From Desulfovirgula sp. (lineage in GTDB: Bacteria > Bacillota > Desulfotomaculia > Desulfotomaculales > Desulfocucumaceae), in NCBI GenBank assembly GCA_020725625.1, contig DYET01000196.1, positions 1 to 64,000 on the forward strand: a stretch of DNA of 64,000 bases, read 5' to 3'. This document shows, one piece after another, positions 11,911 to 62,071 of the stretch (its first letter is position 1; every line of letters begins with the position of its first letter). Made by a program: the position numbers and the translations under genes. The notes beneath the pieces were generated by a model that was given only the letters and a program-made list of their open reading frames with translations, was not told the DNA's origin and made no database searches.

Positions 11911-11961
11911 CGGGAAAGTCTCTCCGGCCAGGAGACAGGAGACAGAAGATAGGGAGAACAT

Positions 11962-29184: not shown

Positions 29185-29354
29185 CGAAAATGTGAAACTG
29201 CCGGGTGCCCTTATAGGGATAATAGGGAATCAGGTTAAATGCCTGAGCGGTCTCCGCCACTGTATCCGGTGAGCCCCCCTCACTGTGCCACCCTGCGGGG
29301 GAAGGCGAGGGAAGGCCGTGACCCGGGAGCCAGGAAACCTTGCCCGGCAGGATG
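29185..29354 (+). promoter_or_regulatory. Cobalamin (AdoCbl) riboswitch
   Basis: gaaactgccgggtgcccttatagggataatagggaa...gcggtctccgccactgtatccggtgag...gtgacccgggagccaggaaaccttgccc; B12-box (gccaggaaacc) upstream of cobalamin genes. Confidence 0.92.
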
Positions 29355-29385
29355 AAAGCCTCTTCGCGAGCAAAGAGGGCTTTTG
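29355..29385 (+). terminator. Riboswitch expression-platform terminator
   Basis: aagcctcttcgcgagcaaagagggcttttg hairpin directly 3' of the B12 box. Confidence 0.75.
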
Positions 29386-29454: not shown

Positions 29455-30072
29455 ATGAAGGACAAGAGATTCGTGCTGGTCCTCGGCGGGGCCCGCAGCG
29501 GCAAAAGCGAATTTGCCGAGCAGTACGCGGCCGGGATGGGCGGCCGGGTAACCTATATAGCCACCCTTTCCGCGGGTGATGAAGAGATGTCCTTCCGGGT
29601 GGCCCTGCACAGGGACAGGAGGCCGCCGGATTGGGTTACGGTGGAGGAAACGCACGACCTGCCCCAAAAGGTTGAAGAAATCGGGCGGGAGCCCGGTGTC
29701 CTGCTGGTTGACTGCCTGACCGGCTGGATAGCCAACCTCCTTTTGGACGACCGGCTGCCCCGTTCCGGGGCTTCCCCCCGGGAGAAAGAGGATTACATAA
29801 TCTCCAGGGTGGCCCATCTGGTCAGCGCCGCGGTCAACTCCAGGGCAAGCGTGCTGGTAGTTTCCAGCGAGGCCGGCTTGGGCCTGGTGCCGCCCTACCC
29901 CGCCGGCCGGGCATTCCGTGACGTATCGGGTCGGGCCAACAGAAACCTGGCCTCGGCGGCCGACGAGGTCTACCTGGTGGTGGCCGGGCTGCCGGTGGAA
30001 CTTAAATCTCTAGCGATAAATCTGGGGACAGGGGACAGGAGACAGGAGACAGGAGACAGAAAAAAAAGATAA
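29455..30072 (+). CDS. cobU: Adenosylcobinamide kinase / adenosylcobinamide-phosphate guanylyltransferase
   Basis: FVLVLGGARSGKSEFAEQYA...VTYIATLSAGDEEMSFRVALHRDRRPPDWVTVEE. Confidence 0.96.
   Translation: MKDKRFVLVLGGARSGKSEFAEQYAAGMGGRVTYIATLSAGDEEMSFRVALHRDRRPPDWVTVEETHDLPQKVEEIGREPGVLLVDCLTGWIANLLLDDRLPRSGASPREKEDYIISRVAHLVSAAVNSRASVLVVSSEAGLGLVPPYPAGRAFRDVSGRANRNLASAADEVYLVVAGLPVELKSLAINLGTGDRRQETGDRKKR
30024..30062. repeat. Heptameric tandem repeat array overlapping the cobU 3' end
   Basis: ggggaca ggggaca ggagaca ggagaca ggagaca gaaaaaa; encodes the TGDRRQETGDRKKR tail of CobU. Confidence 0.85.
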
Positions 30073-32683: not shown

Positions 32684-34093
32684 ATGAAATTGCCGAGGGT
32701 GATTATCGCGGGAACACACAGCGGGTCCGGCAAGACCACCGTGGCCACCGCCCTGGTGCGGGCCCTGGCCCGGTCGGGTGCCAGGGTGCAGCCCTTCAAA
32801 GTGGGGCCTGACTACATCGATCCCGGCTACCACACGGCCGCCGCCGGGCGACTCAGCCGGAACCTGGATGTTTGGCTTCTGGGGGAAGACGGAGTGCGGG
32901 AGATGTTCCTGCGATCGGCCGCCGGGGCGGAGATATCGGTAATCGAAGGGGTCATGGGTCTTTATGACGGCAGGGGGTCCGGCGGGGAAGGGTCGACGGC
33001 CCACGTTGCCCGGATCCTGGACGCCCCGGTGGTTCTGGTCCTGGACGCCAGGTCCATGGCCCGCAGCGCCGCCGCCGTGGTGCTGGGTTATAAAAGCTTC
33101 GATCCGGAACTGGATCTTTGCGGGGTAATCCTCAACCGGGTCGGATCCGAGAGGCATTTCCTTTTCCTCAAGGAGGCAATCCAGGCGGCCACGGGCGTGC
33201 CGGTGATCGGCCGGGTGGCCTACAGTCCGGAAATGGGGCTGCCTGAAAGGCACCTGGGGCTGCTTCCCACGGCTGAGAAGGACGACCTTGCCCGCCTGCT
33301 GGACCTGATGGCCCATAAGATTGCCGAGGCGCTGGACCTTGAGGAACTGGTCCGGCTGGCCCGCGCAGCCCCCGCCCTGCGGCCGCCGGCGTCCCGGATC
33401 TTCCCCGGAGAGGCGGTCCGGCCCGAGGTGAATATCGGACTGGTCCAGGACCGGGCCTTCAATTTTTACTACCAGGACGGGATAGACCTTCTGGCCGCCC
33501 TGGGCGCCCGGCTGGTCCCCTGCTCCGCCCTGGAGGGGGCGCTTCCCCCCGGTCTGGACGGCCTGTATATAGGCGGCGGGTTTCCGGAAATTTTTGCGGA
33601 AACCATCGCCCAGAATATTGAGTTCATGGCGGGAGTCAGGCGGGAGTTCGGCCGGGGGATGCCGGTTTACGCCGAGTGCGGGGGCATGATGTTCCTGTCC
33701 AGGGGCATTACAGACTTCAGCGGCCGTGAATACCCGATGGCCGGGATTATACCCGGGAAAACGGTGATGCTTGAAAAAAGGGCCGGCTTGGGCTACGTCA
33801 CCGCCCGGGCACTGAAGGACAACATCCTGGCTCCCGCCGGAAGGCGGATAAGGGGACACGAGTTTCACTACTCGGTCCTGCACCTGGACCGGCCGGATTA
33901 CGCCTACCTTCTGGAGCGGGAGGGGGAGGAAGCGCGGCCCGACGGCTATGCCTCAGGGTCCCTGCTGGCTTCATACCTGCACATTCACTTCGCGGGCTGC
34001 CCGGAGGAGGCTGTAAACTTCATCCGTACCTGCATGAAATACCGGGAAAAGAAATCGGGGGTAGAATTAGGAATTCAGACCTCCATGCCATAA
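32684..34093 (+). CDS. cbiA: Cobyrinate a,c-diamide synthase
   Basis: RVIIAGTHSGSGKTTVATALVRALARSGARVQPFKVGPDYIDPGYH. Confidence 0.97.
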   Translation: MKLPRVIIAGTHSGSGKTTVATALVRALARSGARVQPFKVGPDYIDPGYHTAAAGRLSRNLDVWLLGEDGVREMFLRSAAGAEISVIEGVMGLYDGRGSGGEGSTAHVARILDAPVVLVLDARSMARSAAAVVLGYKSFDPELDLCGVILNRVGSERHFLFLKEAIQAATGVPVIGRVAYSPEMGLPERHLGLLPTAEKDDLARLLDLMAHKIAEALDLEELVRLARAAPALRPPASRIFPGEAVRPEVNIGLVQDRAFNFYYQDGIDLLAALGARLVPCSALEGALPPGLDGLYIGGGFPEIFAETIAQNIEFMAGVRREFGRGMPVYAECGGMMFLSRGITDFSGREYPMAGIIPGKTVMLEKRAGLGYVTARALKDNILAPAGRRIRGHEFHYSVLHLDRPDYAYLLEREGEEARPDGYASGSLLASYLHIHFAGCPEEAVNFIRTCMKYREKKSGVELGIQTSMP

Positions 34094-34175
34094 AAGAAGG
34101 CACCACGGTGGGAGATACGTTCATTGCCGAGGGTTTTTGGATTCCGGGTTCCGCTTGTAAGATGGGGGTGTTTCG

Positions 34176-34934: not shown

Positions 34935-35044
34935 GGAAGGAGAAAGGGGAACTTTCATCAAAATCTAGTAACATAGTGTTTTTCATCCCCCGGATTGCCG
35001 CTTTTGGCGGCATGGAGGCCTGAAATTTAAATATTTATAAAGAG

Positions 35045-37964: not shown

Positions 37965-37988
37965 CTACCCTACCTGAAAATCTTACCG

Positions 37989-38023
37989 GTCAGGAGACAG
38001 GAGTCAGGAGACAGGAGTCAGTG
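37989..38023. repeat. Heptameric tandem repeat array (alternating gtcagga/gacagga)
   Basis: gtcagga gacagga gtcagga gacagga gtcagtg. Confidence 0.85.
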
Positions 38024-38034
38024 GAGTGTACGGA

Positions 38035-38243
38035 GGGGGTGGATTTCAAAGCCGAGCGGATATTCCGGAGGCTGGCTACCGGCACTTGGCGACGGAGCAT
38101 ACGGGATGCCGAGAAGGCTGCAGGAAGCAGCCGCAGCTTAAGTGTGCATGGACGCACGTACGGAGGCGGCCGGCAGACCGTAAGCGACGAGCTTAGAGCC
38201 GGTACAGCCGGAGGATCGAGTAGCGAGGCTTTAATCCACCCCC
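38035..38243 (+). ncRNA. Candidate large structured non-coding RNA / RNA-like mobile element (family unassigned)
   Basis: Closing stem gggggtggatt(38035-45)/aatccaccccc(38233-43) extended by aaagcc(38048-53)/ggcttt(38227-32). Nested ggctg..taccggc(38070-83)/gccggtacagcc(38198-209). Internal hairpins cgga-tat-tccg, gcat-acggg-atgc, ggctgc-aggaa-gcagcc, gtgc-atggac-gcac. No convincing CDS. Strand of transcription is assumed. Confidence 0.5.
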
Positions 38244-38247
38244 GGCC

Positions 38248-38278
38248 CCGAATTTTCATTGTTCGTGGTGCCGCTTGC
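38248..38278 (-). repeat. Dispersed 31-nt repeat, copy 1 (inverted relative to copy 2)
   Basis: Reverse complement GCAAGCGGCACCACGAACAATGAAAATTCGG matches 52334-52364 at 29/31 positions. Confidence 0.9.
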
Positions 38279-38668
38279 CCTGATTTCCACTTTTCCAGCA
38301 CTGAACGGAGCTTCCTTAGTATGCAGTGACTAAACTTTTGCCTTAATTTAAAGCATCCCGGGCCGCCGAAAGGCTGGCCCGGGTATTGATGTAGGGACAA
38401 TATTCGTCTATAATAAAAGCTAATTAAATAATGTACAAGCATGTCAGCCCTTGGGAAAAGGGGTTCAAAGGACTCGACTTGCCGGGGTGGGTGTTCTTTT
38501 TCACGGCTTCACCCTTTTTATTTGTGAAGGCCGAGATTTAAACCAGGCGGAAGCCGGGAAGGCAGCGCCCTTTTTTTTGAGATATTTTACCGGGAGGTGG
38601 GGAGGGAATAGGGCCGGATTGGCGAAATAATTGAATATTCTTGTAATTGTTAAAGGAGGAAGGGAGTA

Positions 38669-40087
38669 TTGTCCGAACAGAGCCAAGTAATCTTTGCCAC
38701 TGCGGTTTTTTTGATTACTTACGGGGTTATTGTGTCTGAAAAAATACATAGGGCCGTAGTGGCCCTGGTGGGCGCCTCCCTGATGGCGCTGACCAAGATC
38801 CTCAGCGTGGAACAGGCCGTGGAGGCCATTGATTTTAACACCATCGGCCTCCTGGTGGGGATGATGATCATCGTCGGGATTACCAGGCAGACCGGTGTGT
38901 TCGAGTATCTGGCCATCAAGGCGGCCAAGCAGTCGGGCGGGCACCCCCTCAAGATAATGGCCGCCCTGGGCCTGGTGACGGCCGTCCTCTCGGCCTTCCT
39001 GGACAACGTGACCACGGTTCTCCTGATTGTGCCGGTCACCTTTGCCATCGCGAAAAAGCTGGAGATAAGTCCCCTGCCGTACCTAATCGTGGAAATCCTG
39101 ACCTCGAACATCGGGGGTACGGCAACGCTTATCGGCGATCCGCCCAACATCATGATCGGCAGTGCCACCGCCCTGGGGTTCATGGACTTTGTCATCAACC
39201 TTACGCCTGTGGTTGCTGTCGTCTACATCCTGACGGTGTTCCTGCTCAGGATTGTGTACAGAAAGCAGCTGGTATCCGACCCCGAACGCCAGAAAAGCAT
39301 AATGGAACTAAACGAAAACGACGAAATAAAGGACCCGGCCCTGCTTAAAAAATGCCTCTTGGTACTTTTCCTGACCATAACGGGCTTTATCCTGCACCAA
39401 TTCGTTCACCTGGAGTCCTCAGTAATCGCCTTGAGCGGCGCCAGCCTCCTTCTCCTGATCACCAGGGAGGACCCCGAGCACGCCCTGCACGCGGTGGAGT
39501 GGCCGGTGATTTTCTTCTTTGTGGGCCTGTTCATAATCGTCGGCGCCCTGGAGCACGTAGGCGTGATCGAAGCGGTGGCCAGGTTCTGCATCGAGGTTAC
39601 CGGCGGGGAAGTGATTTCAACAGGGATCCTGATTCTCTGGATTTCGGCCATCGCCTCGGCCTTTGTGGACAACATCCCCTTCGTGGCCACCATGATCCCG
39701 CTCATTAATGACATGGGCAGGCTGGCTTCGATTGAAAACCTGAATTTTCTCTGGTGGTCCCTGTCCCTGGGCGCCTGTCTGGGCGGCAACGGAACCGTCA
39801 TAGGGGCCTCGGCCAATGTCGTGGTAATCGGGATGGCTGAAAAGAGGGGCACTCACATCAGTTTCATCGGCTTTATGAAGGTGGCCTTTCCCCTGATGAT
39901 CATGTCCATCGTTGTCTCCATGTTATACCTACTCTTCTGGCTGTTTTTCCCGGGGATGGTCTCCCTTCTGGGCACGCTGGCCTTCTGCGTATTTCTCGGC
40001 CTTGTCCTCGTGCCGGCCAATAGAAAACTGGACAGGGCCGCCGCGTCACCCGGGCTGACCAGGCAGGGAGTCCCGGGACCGGAGTAG
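38669..40087 (+). CDS. ArsB/NhaD-type (IT superfamily) ion transporter
   Basis: VGMMIIVGITRQTGVFEYLAIKAAKQSGGHPLKIMAALGLVTAVLSAFLDNVTTVLLIVPVT...NIGGTATLIGDPPNIMIGSA. Confidence 0.92.
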   Translation: MSEQSQVIFATAVFLITYGVIVSEKIHRAVVALVGASLMALTKILSVEQAVEAIDFNTIGLLVGMMIIVGITRQTGVFEYLAIKAAKQSGGHPLKIMAALGLVTAVLSAFLDNVTTVLLIVPVTFAIAKKLEISPLPYLIVEILTSNIGGTATLIGDPPNIMIGSATALGFMDFVINLTPVVAVVYILTVFLLRIVYRKQLVSDPERQKSIMELNENDEIKDPALLKKCLLVLFLTITGFILHQFVHLESSVIALSGASLLLLITREDPEHALHAVEWPVIFFFVGLFIIVGALEHVGVIEAVARFCIEVTGGEVISTGILILWISAIASAFVDNIPFVATMIPLINDMGRLASIENLNFLWWSLSLGACLGGNGTVIGASANVVVIGMAEKRGTHISFIGFMKVAFPLMIMSIVVSMLYLLFWLFFPGMVSLLGTLAFCVFLGLVLVPANRKLDRAAASPGLTRQGVPGPE

Positions 40088-52284: not shown

Positions 52285-52321
52285 GTCTGCGTCAAGATTC
52301 TGCGTCAAGATTTAGGAGGTA
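52285..52321 (+). repeat. Tandem 13-bp repeat plus 22-nt dispersed repeat shared with window start
   Basis: ctgcgtcaagatt x2 (52287-52312); ctgcgtcaagatttaggaggta matches the reverse complement of 23-44 at 21/22. Confidence 0.85.
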
Positions 52322-52333
52322 ATTGCCCATGCC

Positions 52334-52364
52334 GCAAGCGGCACCACGAACAGTGGAAATTCGG
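52334..52364 (+). repeat. Dispersed 31-nt repeat, copy 2
   Basis: gcaagcggcaccacgaacagtggaaattcgg; 29/31 to the reverse complement of 38248-38278. Confidence 0.9.
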
Positions 52365-61654: not shown

Positions 61655-62071
61655 AATAGTTTTAAAGGTGATGACGGGGAAAAGTAGGCAGGAAGACCAC
61701 CTTCCAGGGAGAAGGCGCCGTAGACTGGAAGCGCCTTCAGGGCAGGACCGGTTGAAGTTCTCCCCCGAACTGTGAGGCTGAAACCGCTTTGTTTACACGC
61801 GGAAAGTAGGCCGAAACGGGTTTCTCCCGTTACAGGGAAGGGGTATAAGGAATGACCGTTCCCGTACCTTTCAATGAGCCGGGCCTTAAAAGCCAAATAG
61901 GGTGGTACCGCGAGCCGTTCGTCCCTATCGACGAACGGCTTTTGATTTTGGGGAGGCTTTTTAAACGGGAGAAAGTCTTTCCTGTACCTATAAAGGGGGT
62001 TTCTTTGGAAACCAATATAGGGTGGTACCGCGGAAAAAAATTCCGTCCCTTTCCAGGGACGGCTTTTTTTT
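61655..62071 (+). promoter_or_regulatory. T-box leader with two tandem antiterminator/terminator modules
   Basis: AATAGGGTGGTACCGCG at 61896-61912 with terminator agccgttcgtccctatcgacgaacggctttt. A second TATAGGGTGGTACCGCGG ends near 62032, with terminator ccgtccctttccagggacggctttttttt. One apparent stem I. Confidence 0.92.

Follow-up and report, generated by a model that had tools for sequence, protein, structure and literature searches.

What is the strongly folded stretch of 209 nt that lies between spoVD and a transporter gene in Desulfovirgula sp.? The initial annotation of the window (the whole stretch of 64,000 nucleotides analysed here, from contig DYET01000196.1) took the segment 38035-38243 for an orphan structured element, a candidate for a novel non-coding RNA or for a solo element akin to the IscB omegaRNA (HEARO). 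According to our analysis it is most probably (we estimate a probability of about 0.8) a divergent copy of the TwoAYGGAY structured family, borne by a MITE-like mobile element that is dispersed and non-autonomous and has inserted between spoVD and a gene for a CitM/ArsB-type transporter. The dispersal is well supported; the mechanism of transposition is supported in part, by observations made in relatives.

The analysis confirms that the element at 38035-38243 is real: it is non-coding, highly structured and built with long-range helices. The minimum free energy of its plus strand (209 nt) is -113.3 kcal/mol, compared with a mean of -74.3 (sd 4.1) for dinucleotide-shuffled sequences (z = -9.4), and none of the 200 shuffles reaches this value. 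The minus strand also folds strongly (z = -6.8), as expected for a near-palindromic rod. The coordinates and helices proposed initially were right with one exception: the closing stem with its continuation (38035-38045/38233-38243 and 38048-38053/38227-38232) appears in the predicted fold, as does the inner long-range helix, and covariation supports the hairpins GGCUGC-AGGAA-GCAGCC and GUGC-AUGGAC-GCAC, but the local hairpin gcat-acggg-atgc is absent, its bases being paired over a long range instead (ACGG/CCGU and UGCCG/CGGCA). The two overlapping ORFs, already suspected to be spurious, gave no match in a Pfam search, and no single reading frame stays open across the copies of the element, which rules out a coding overlap. 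Likewise, the z-score of the shuffle test together with the covariation described below rules out a chance fold caused by high GC content.

The sequence is no orphan, as many further copies were found both in the host genome and in its relatives. A 291-base query recovers 44 pieces from the 3.1 Mb draft genome to which the window belongs (G000), several of them at contig ends, where repeats often sit in assemblies. A covariance model (R1), built from a 17-copy alignment (A1) whose seeds are copies of the window's family including those from G005 and G007, yields 15 hits plus many fragments in this genome, 16 hits in the congener HOT.CON.130 (G001), 10 in FK_Sedi_B_Bin.80 (G002), 32 in Peptococcaceae BICA1-7 (G005) and at least 139 in BRH_c4a (G007), with none in two other family members. 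Across the phylum, R1-positive genomes number 15 out of 399; they represent several families, and many of them hold multiple copies. The folded stretch represents a mobile element that is repeated 10 to more than 100 times per genome in this clostridial group, and its multiple, dispersed, non-coding copies are what is expected of a MITE. Phage records, plasmid records and viral contigs contained no match to the element, ruling out a phage or plasmid origin.

The structure is conserved by compensation, as proven by covariation. In an alignment of 38 sequences from about 12 genomes, made with MAFFT without structural information (A4), the 26 pairs tested are 91% paired, and compensatory substitutions do occur in the proposed helices, with 21 of the 26 pairs changed on both sides. 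The covariation score is 0.497 compared with 0.186 (sd 0.011) after shuffling, a test that is inflated by the relatedness of the sequences, and with at most 0.123 for slid partners, a control that preserves this relatedness. The outer closing stem has wholly different sequences in different copies and groups, with complementarity kept, and the stems of both apical hairpins have been replaced wholesale, with the loop GGA retained in nearly all copies, approximately 25-32 nt apart. In 34 of the 38 copies the fold of the plus strand is better than that of the complement. G-U pairs amount to only about 4%, with no difference in rarity between the two strands; the wobble test therefore does not separate selection on RNA from selection on DNA.

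To which family does such a structure belong? A HEARO element would share with it the general appearance of a dispersed structured element of about 200 nt that may occur without an ORF, and this is the full extent of the likeness. There is no match in sequence or structure: a search of the region with RF02033 at E-values up to 10 found nothing, no iscB/HNH nuclease ORF lies beside the window copy, and the proposed resemblance to an omegaRNA falls away with the gcat-N5-atgc hairpin, which does not form. RF02033 also gave no match in the rest of the window's genome, although its genome-wide absence is not proven by this, since no control genome gave a match either. Given that true homology was found to another family, RF01731, we reject HEARO at this locus and consider it to have practically no chance of being correct.

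RF01731 is the Rfam entry for TwoAYGGAY, with a gathering score of 43 bits. Distant copies found with R1 pass this score at matching coordinates (in G005, G007, G127, G222 and G277), as does the copy L020 from the window's own genome (48.3 bits), and close homologues score 45-66 bits. Searched directly with RF01731, BRH_c4a contains 81 matches, AS04akNAM_112 has 29, isolate 25 has 23 and G277 has 12, whereas the window's own genome has a single one, L020. The window copy itself gives no hit with the RF01731 model and formally falls short of its score, which makes it a divergent homologue. Nonetheless, it is homologous over the whole core to RF01731 members, as loci found with R1 also pass RF01731 and the alignments are full-length, and it has two adjacent hairpins with GGA-containing loops, the first without the full AYGGAY. 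Membership of the TwoAYGGAY family, in a lineage that lies below the detection of the Rfam model, is well supported. The initial proposal of a "novel ncRNA" thus holds in part: the family is already in Rfam, but this lineage escapes its model, and a mobile, high-copy nature does not figure in the papers accessible to us. The likeness to TwoAYGGAY comprises the rod, the two adjacent apical hairpins, the GGA loops and the conserved flanking helices; the window copy differs in its first loop (AGGAA, not AYGGAY) and in its setting within a long outer stem and mobile-element flanks, and the family differs from TwoAYGGAY as known by reaching 81 RF01731 matches per genome. As a side observation, one TwoAYGGAY copy (L094, G116:C50) has a Moco/tungsten riboswitch (RF01055, 72.7 bits) as a neighbour on the opposite strand, at a distance of about 130 nt.

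The window copy can be divided into the following parts, all on the plus strand:

37970-37982, +: 5' outer end of the element, CTACCTGAAAATC, placed by comparison of copies (as in G000/G001, where the consensus is TTCTACCCTGAAAAT), with the partner ATTTTCA at 38253-38259
37989-38021, +: heptamer array CAGGAGA/CAGGAGT between the outer end and the core (tandem repeat finder), missing from some other copies
38028-38249, +: conserved core of the TwoAYGGAY type (model R1, 232.9 bits)
38035-38045, +: outer closing stem, 5' arm, pairing with 38233-38243
38065-38090, +: long-range helices, 5' side (38065-66, 38070-74 and 38079-90), from covariation
38116-38132, +: hairpin 1, loop AGGAA (GGA at 38123-38125), double changes in 5 of 6 stem pairs
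38144-38157, +: hairpin 2, loop AUGGAC (GGA at 38150-38152), the "AYGGAY" loop, from covariation
38191-38214, +: long-range helices, 3' side, from covariation
38233-38243, +: outer closing stem, 3' arm
38250-38287, +: truncated 3' hairpin module (ATTTTCATTGTTCGTGGTGCCGC...), 21.5 bits

Sister copies have an intact 3' hairpin module, which is also dispersed alone in these genomes. The window contains further copies or remnants of the 51-nt hairpin module (ATTTTCAT..GGTGCCGC..GCGGCATG) at 52315-52362 (minus strand, 40.7 bits), 34071-34108 (minus strand, 25.9 bits) and 34977-35027 (plus strand, 25.4 bits), and this module is dispersed in 14 of the 15 genomes tested, including genomes without the core. 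Heptamer arrays of CAGGAGA/CAGGAGT also occur in the window at 11931-11946 and 30031-30060, besides the one at 37989-38021, and adjoin many copies in relatives; they resemble the short heptamers that occur as tandem repeats in cyanobacteria.

How does the element move? In BICA1-7 a variant of the core lies within elements of 334-340 bp that have 15-bp terminal inverted repeats (CAGACTGATGACAAA ... TTTGTCAACAACCTG). Three of the four complete copies are flanked by perfect direct repeats of 20-21 bp, each of them a different whole terminator hairpin; in the fourth (L344) the right-side repeat is shortened to CCCT. A 76-bp miniature relative in FK_Sedi_B_Bin.80 is likewise flanked by a duplicated hairpin, of 17 bp (the duplicated hairpins of both genomes are AGACGCTCAAAAGAGCGTCT, GCCCTGCCAGTTGGCAGGGCC, AGGGCCCCATAAAGGACCCC and GCCGCCCTCCGGGCGGT). 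The inverted-repeat pattern is directly adjoined by a hairpin of 6 bp or more at 11 of 24 sites, several of the 24 being chance intragenic matches, compared with 1.3% of random positions. The units in BRH_c4a measure about 450-500 bp; they are bounded by an A-run that usually has a hairpin behind it, in many cases one specific to the site. In the window copy the 3' end is truncated and no target-site duplication is recognisable, in contrast to the inverted repeats and duplications seen in BICA1-7 and FK_Sedi_B_Bin.80; with its 3' hairpin module truncated, its own breakpoints cannot be read. An unbiased search for direct repeats flanking 110 copies returned mostly shared internal modules, and at two apparent empty sites (L216/L195 and L171/L202) the breakpoints are unreadable. 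Since outer arms and ends differ between groups, a single mechanism of mobility common to all of them is not proven.

Near the ends that we examined, no autonomous element or transposase was recognised. The ORFs beside the BICA1-7 inverted repeats, judged by eye, include no obvious transposase, and a pair of 3' modules 1.2 kb apart in HOT.CON.130 (G001:C43) encloses none either. Relatives do have Y1 transposases, though always more than 1.5 kb away from the 3' module, whereas the window's genome yielded none; on these grounds we reject mobilisation of the REP/RAYT type. The element resembles bacterial MITEs and small interspersed repeats (BOX, RUP, ERIC, QMITE) in being non-coding, 200-500 bp long, dispersed and mostly intergenic, with inverted-repeat ends and target repeats in the sister genus and without a transposase of its own. 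It differs from them in that no parent IS was identified and in that its interior consists not of transposon remnants but of a structured family that covaries and extends across the phylum. Insertion at terminator hairpins is known for IS1272/TnSha1 (IS1182 family), which shows no sequence specificity there (PMC4923244); however, TnSha1 removes a portion of the hairpin and does not duplicate its target (PMC4923244), whereas three of the four complete BICA1-7 copies have the hairpin in full at either side. We propose that a transposase of the host may act in trans, recognising the ends of the element and cutting at palindromic terminator hairpins; insertion at such sites would spare the genes.

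The site between spoVD and the transporter gene (38669-40087; best Pfam hit CitMHS, followed by ArsB) allows the presence of the element to be compared among relatives. The neighbourhood is conserved in HOT.CON.130, FK_Sedi_B_Bin.80, BICA1-7 and BRH_c4a, and in all four the spacer lacks the element, which shows that its presence here is lineage-specific. In four relatives the leader of the syntenic transporter gene has a match to the Na+ riboswitch RF03071 that lies below the cut-off (24.8-32.1 bits; cut-off 40.5); the counterpart in the window, 38441-38499, has no RF03071 match and looks degenerate. Elsewhere, the window also holds a cobalamin riboswitch (29186-29361) and a T-box leader (61662-62053).

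It would be natural to regard the window copy as a cis-regulatory leader or a 3' UTR element of its neighbours, as it is placed between two co-directional genes and Rfam files TwoAYGGAY under Cis-reg. Against this, the copies are randomly oriented (44 in the same and 51 in the opposite direction with respect to the upstream gene, 95 copies in total), the syntenic spacers are empty, and Weinberg et al. 2010 (PMC2864571) present TwoAYGGAY as a candidate RNA of unexplained function and mark it as not cis-regulatory. On account of random orientation and empty spacers we reject cis-regulation, to which we concede only a very slight chance. Another reading takes the copies to be, or to contain, genes for small RNAs that titrate a putative target, CsrA, with their two GGA loops, high copy number making them a distributed sponge. 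Such a CsrA-binding sRNA has been put forward for TwoAYGGAY as a hypothesis (PMC4333381); it agrees with the near-invariance of GGA in both loops in spite of the replaced stems, which fits the CsrA motif, and with the finding of csrA in the window's genome and in all multi-copy relatives of its family. On the other hand, csrA is found in 281 of the 399 genomes of the phylum and in 12 of the 15 element-positive ones, hence there is no enrichment, and it was not detected in G277 with its 12 RF01731 matches. Random orientation and the failure to identify a common promoter also speak against each copy being a gene, and the equal rarity of wobble pairs on both strands lends this reading no support. 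Altogether, we find this reading rather unlikely.

The same scarcity of G-U pairs, the strong folding of both strands, and the terminal inverted repeats with hairpin-sized target repeats would suit a pure DNA palindrome. On this reading the element is a MITE without any function as RNA, and selection acts on its structure solely because it serves transposition or forms a terminator-like palindrome. This we regard as possible, but short of an even chance, as the conservation of the interior (two GGA loops and tandem GA mismatches) across families with differing ends is unusual for a plain MITE, and the plus strand outfolds its complement in most copies. Within our preferred reading, that of a TwoAYGGAY copy on a MITE-like mobile element, the role of the core can be stated only tentatively: it may be transcribed and offer its pair of GGA loops, separated by about 27 nt, to a CsrA-type RNA-binding protein or, with similar reserve on our side, it may be a folded DNA hairpin that the mobilising enzyme needs. 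What probability remains would go to an RNA role of another kind.

Since 2010 TwoAYGGAY has been an orphan in Rfam, where it is classed as a cis-regulator, while a role as a CsrA-binding sRNA has been suggested for it; the literature accessible to us contains no description of it as a repeat. The cis-regulator annotation looks wrong for the genomes studied here, and relatives that are high-copy, insertionally polymorphic elements reframe the family in such a way that copy number, ends and choice of target can be tested. It is tempting to speculate, with less than even confidence, that the whole "RNA family" is a class of mobile elements with intrinsic-terminator hairpins as their targets, which are duplicated upon insertion, the two-loop core being recognised by the mobilising machinery or by an RNA-binding protein captured from the host, for instance CsrA. 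If so, the same core would be combined with element ends that are unrelated from one clostridial family to another. The targeting of terminator hairpins combined with a conserved structured cargo poses a concrete question for both transposition and RNA biology.

Two further observations concern the architecture of individual copies. In BRH_c4a, the locus L144 (G007:C91) holds three copies of the core in direct order, spaced by about 440-480 bp, so that the unit has been amplified locally in tandem. Four copies of the window's own genome (L016, L014, L011 and L022) have the apical arm or the whole middle swapped for another imperfect inverted repeat, built of TTGGAAGTCGGAGG-type repeats, while retaining the outer ends of the element.
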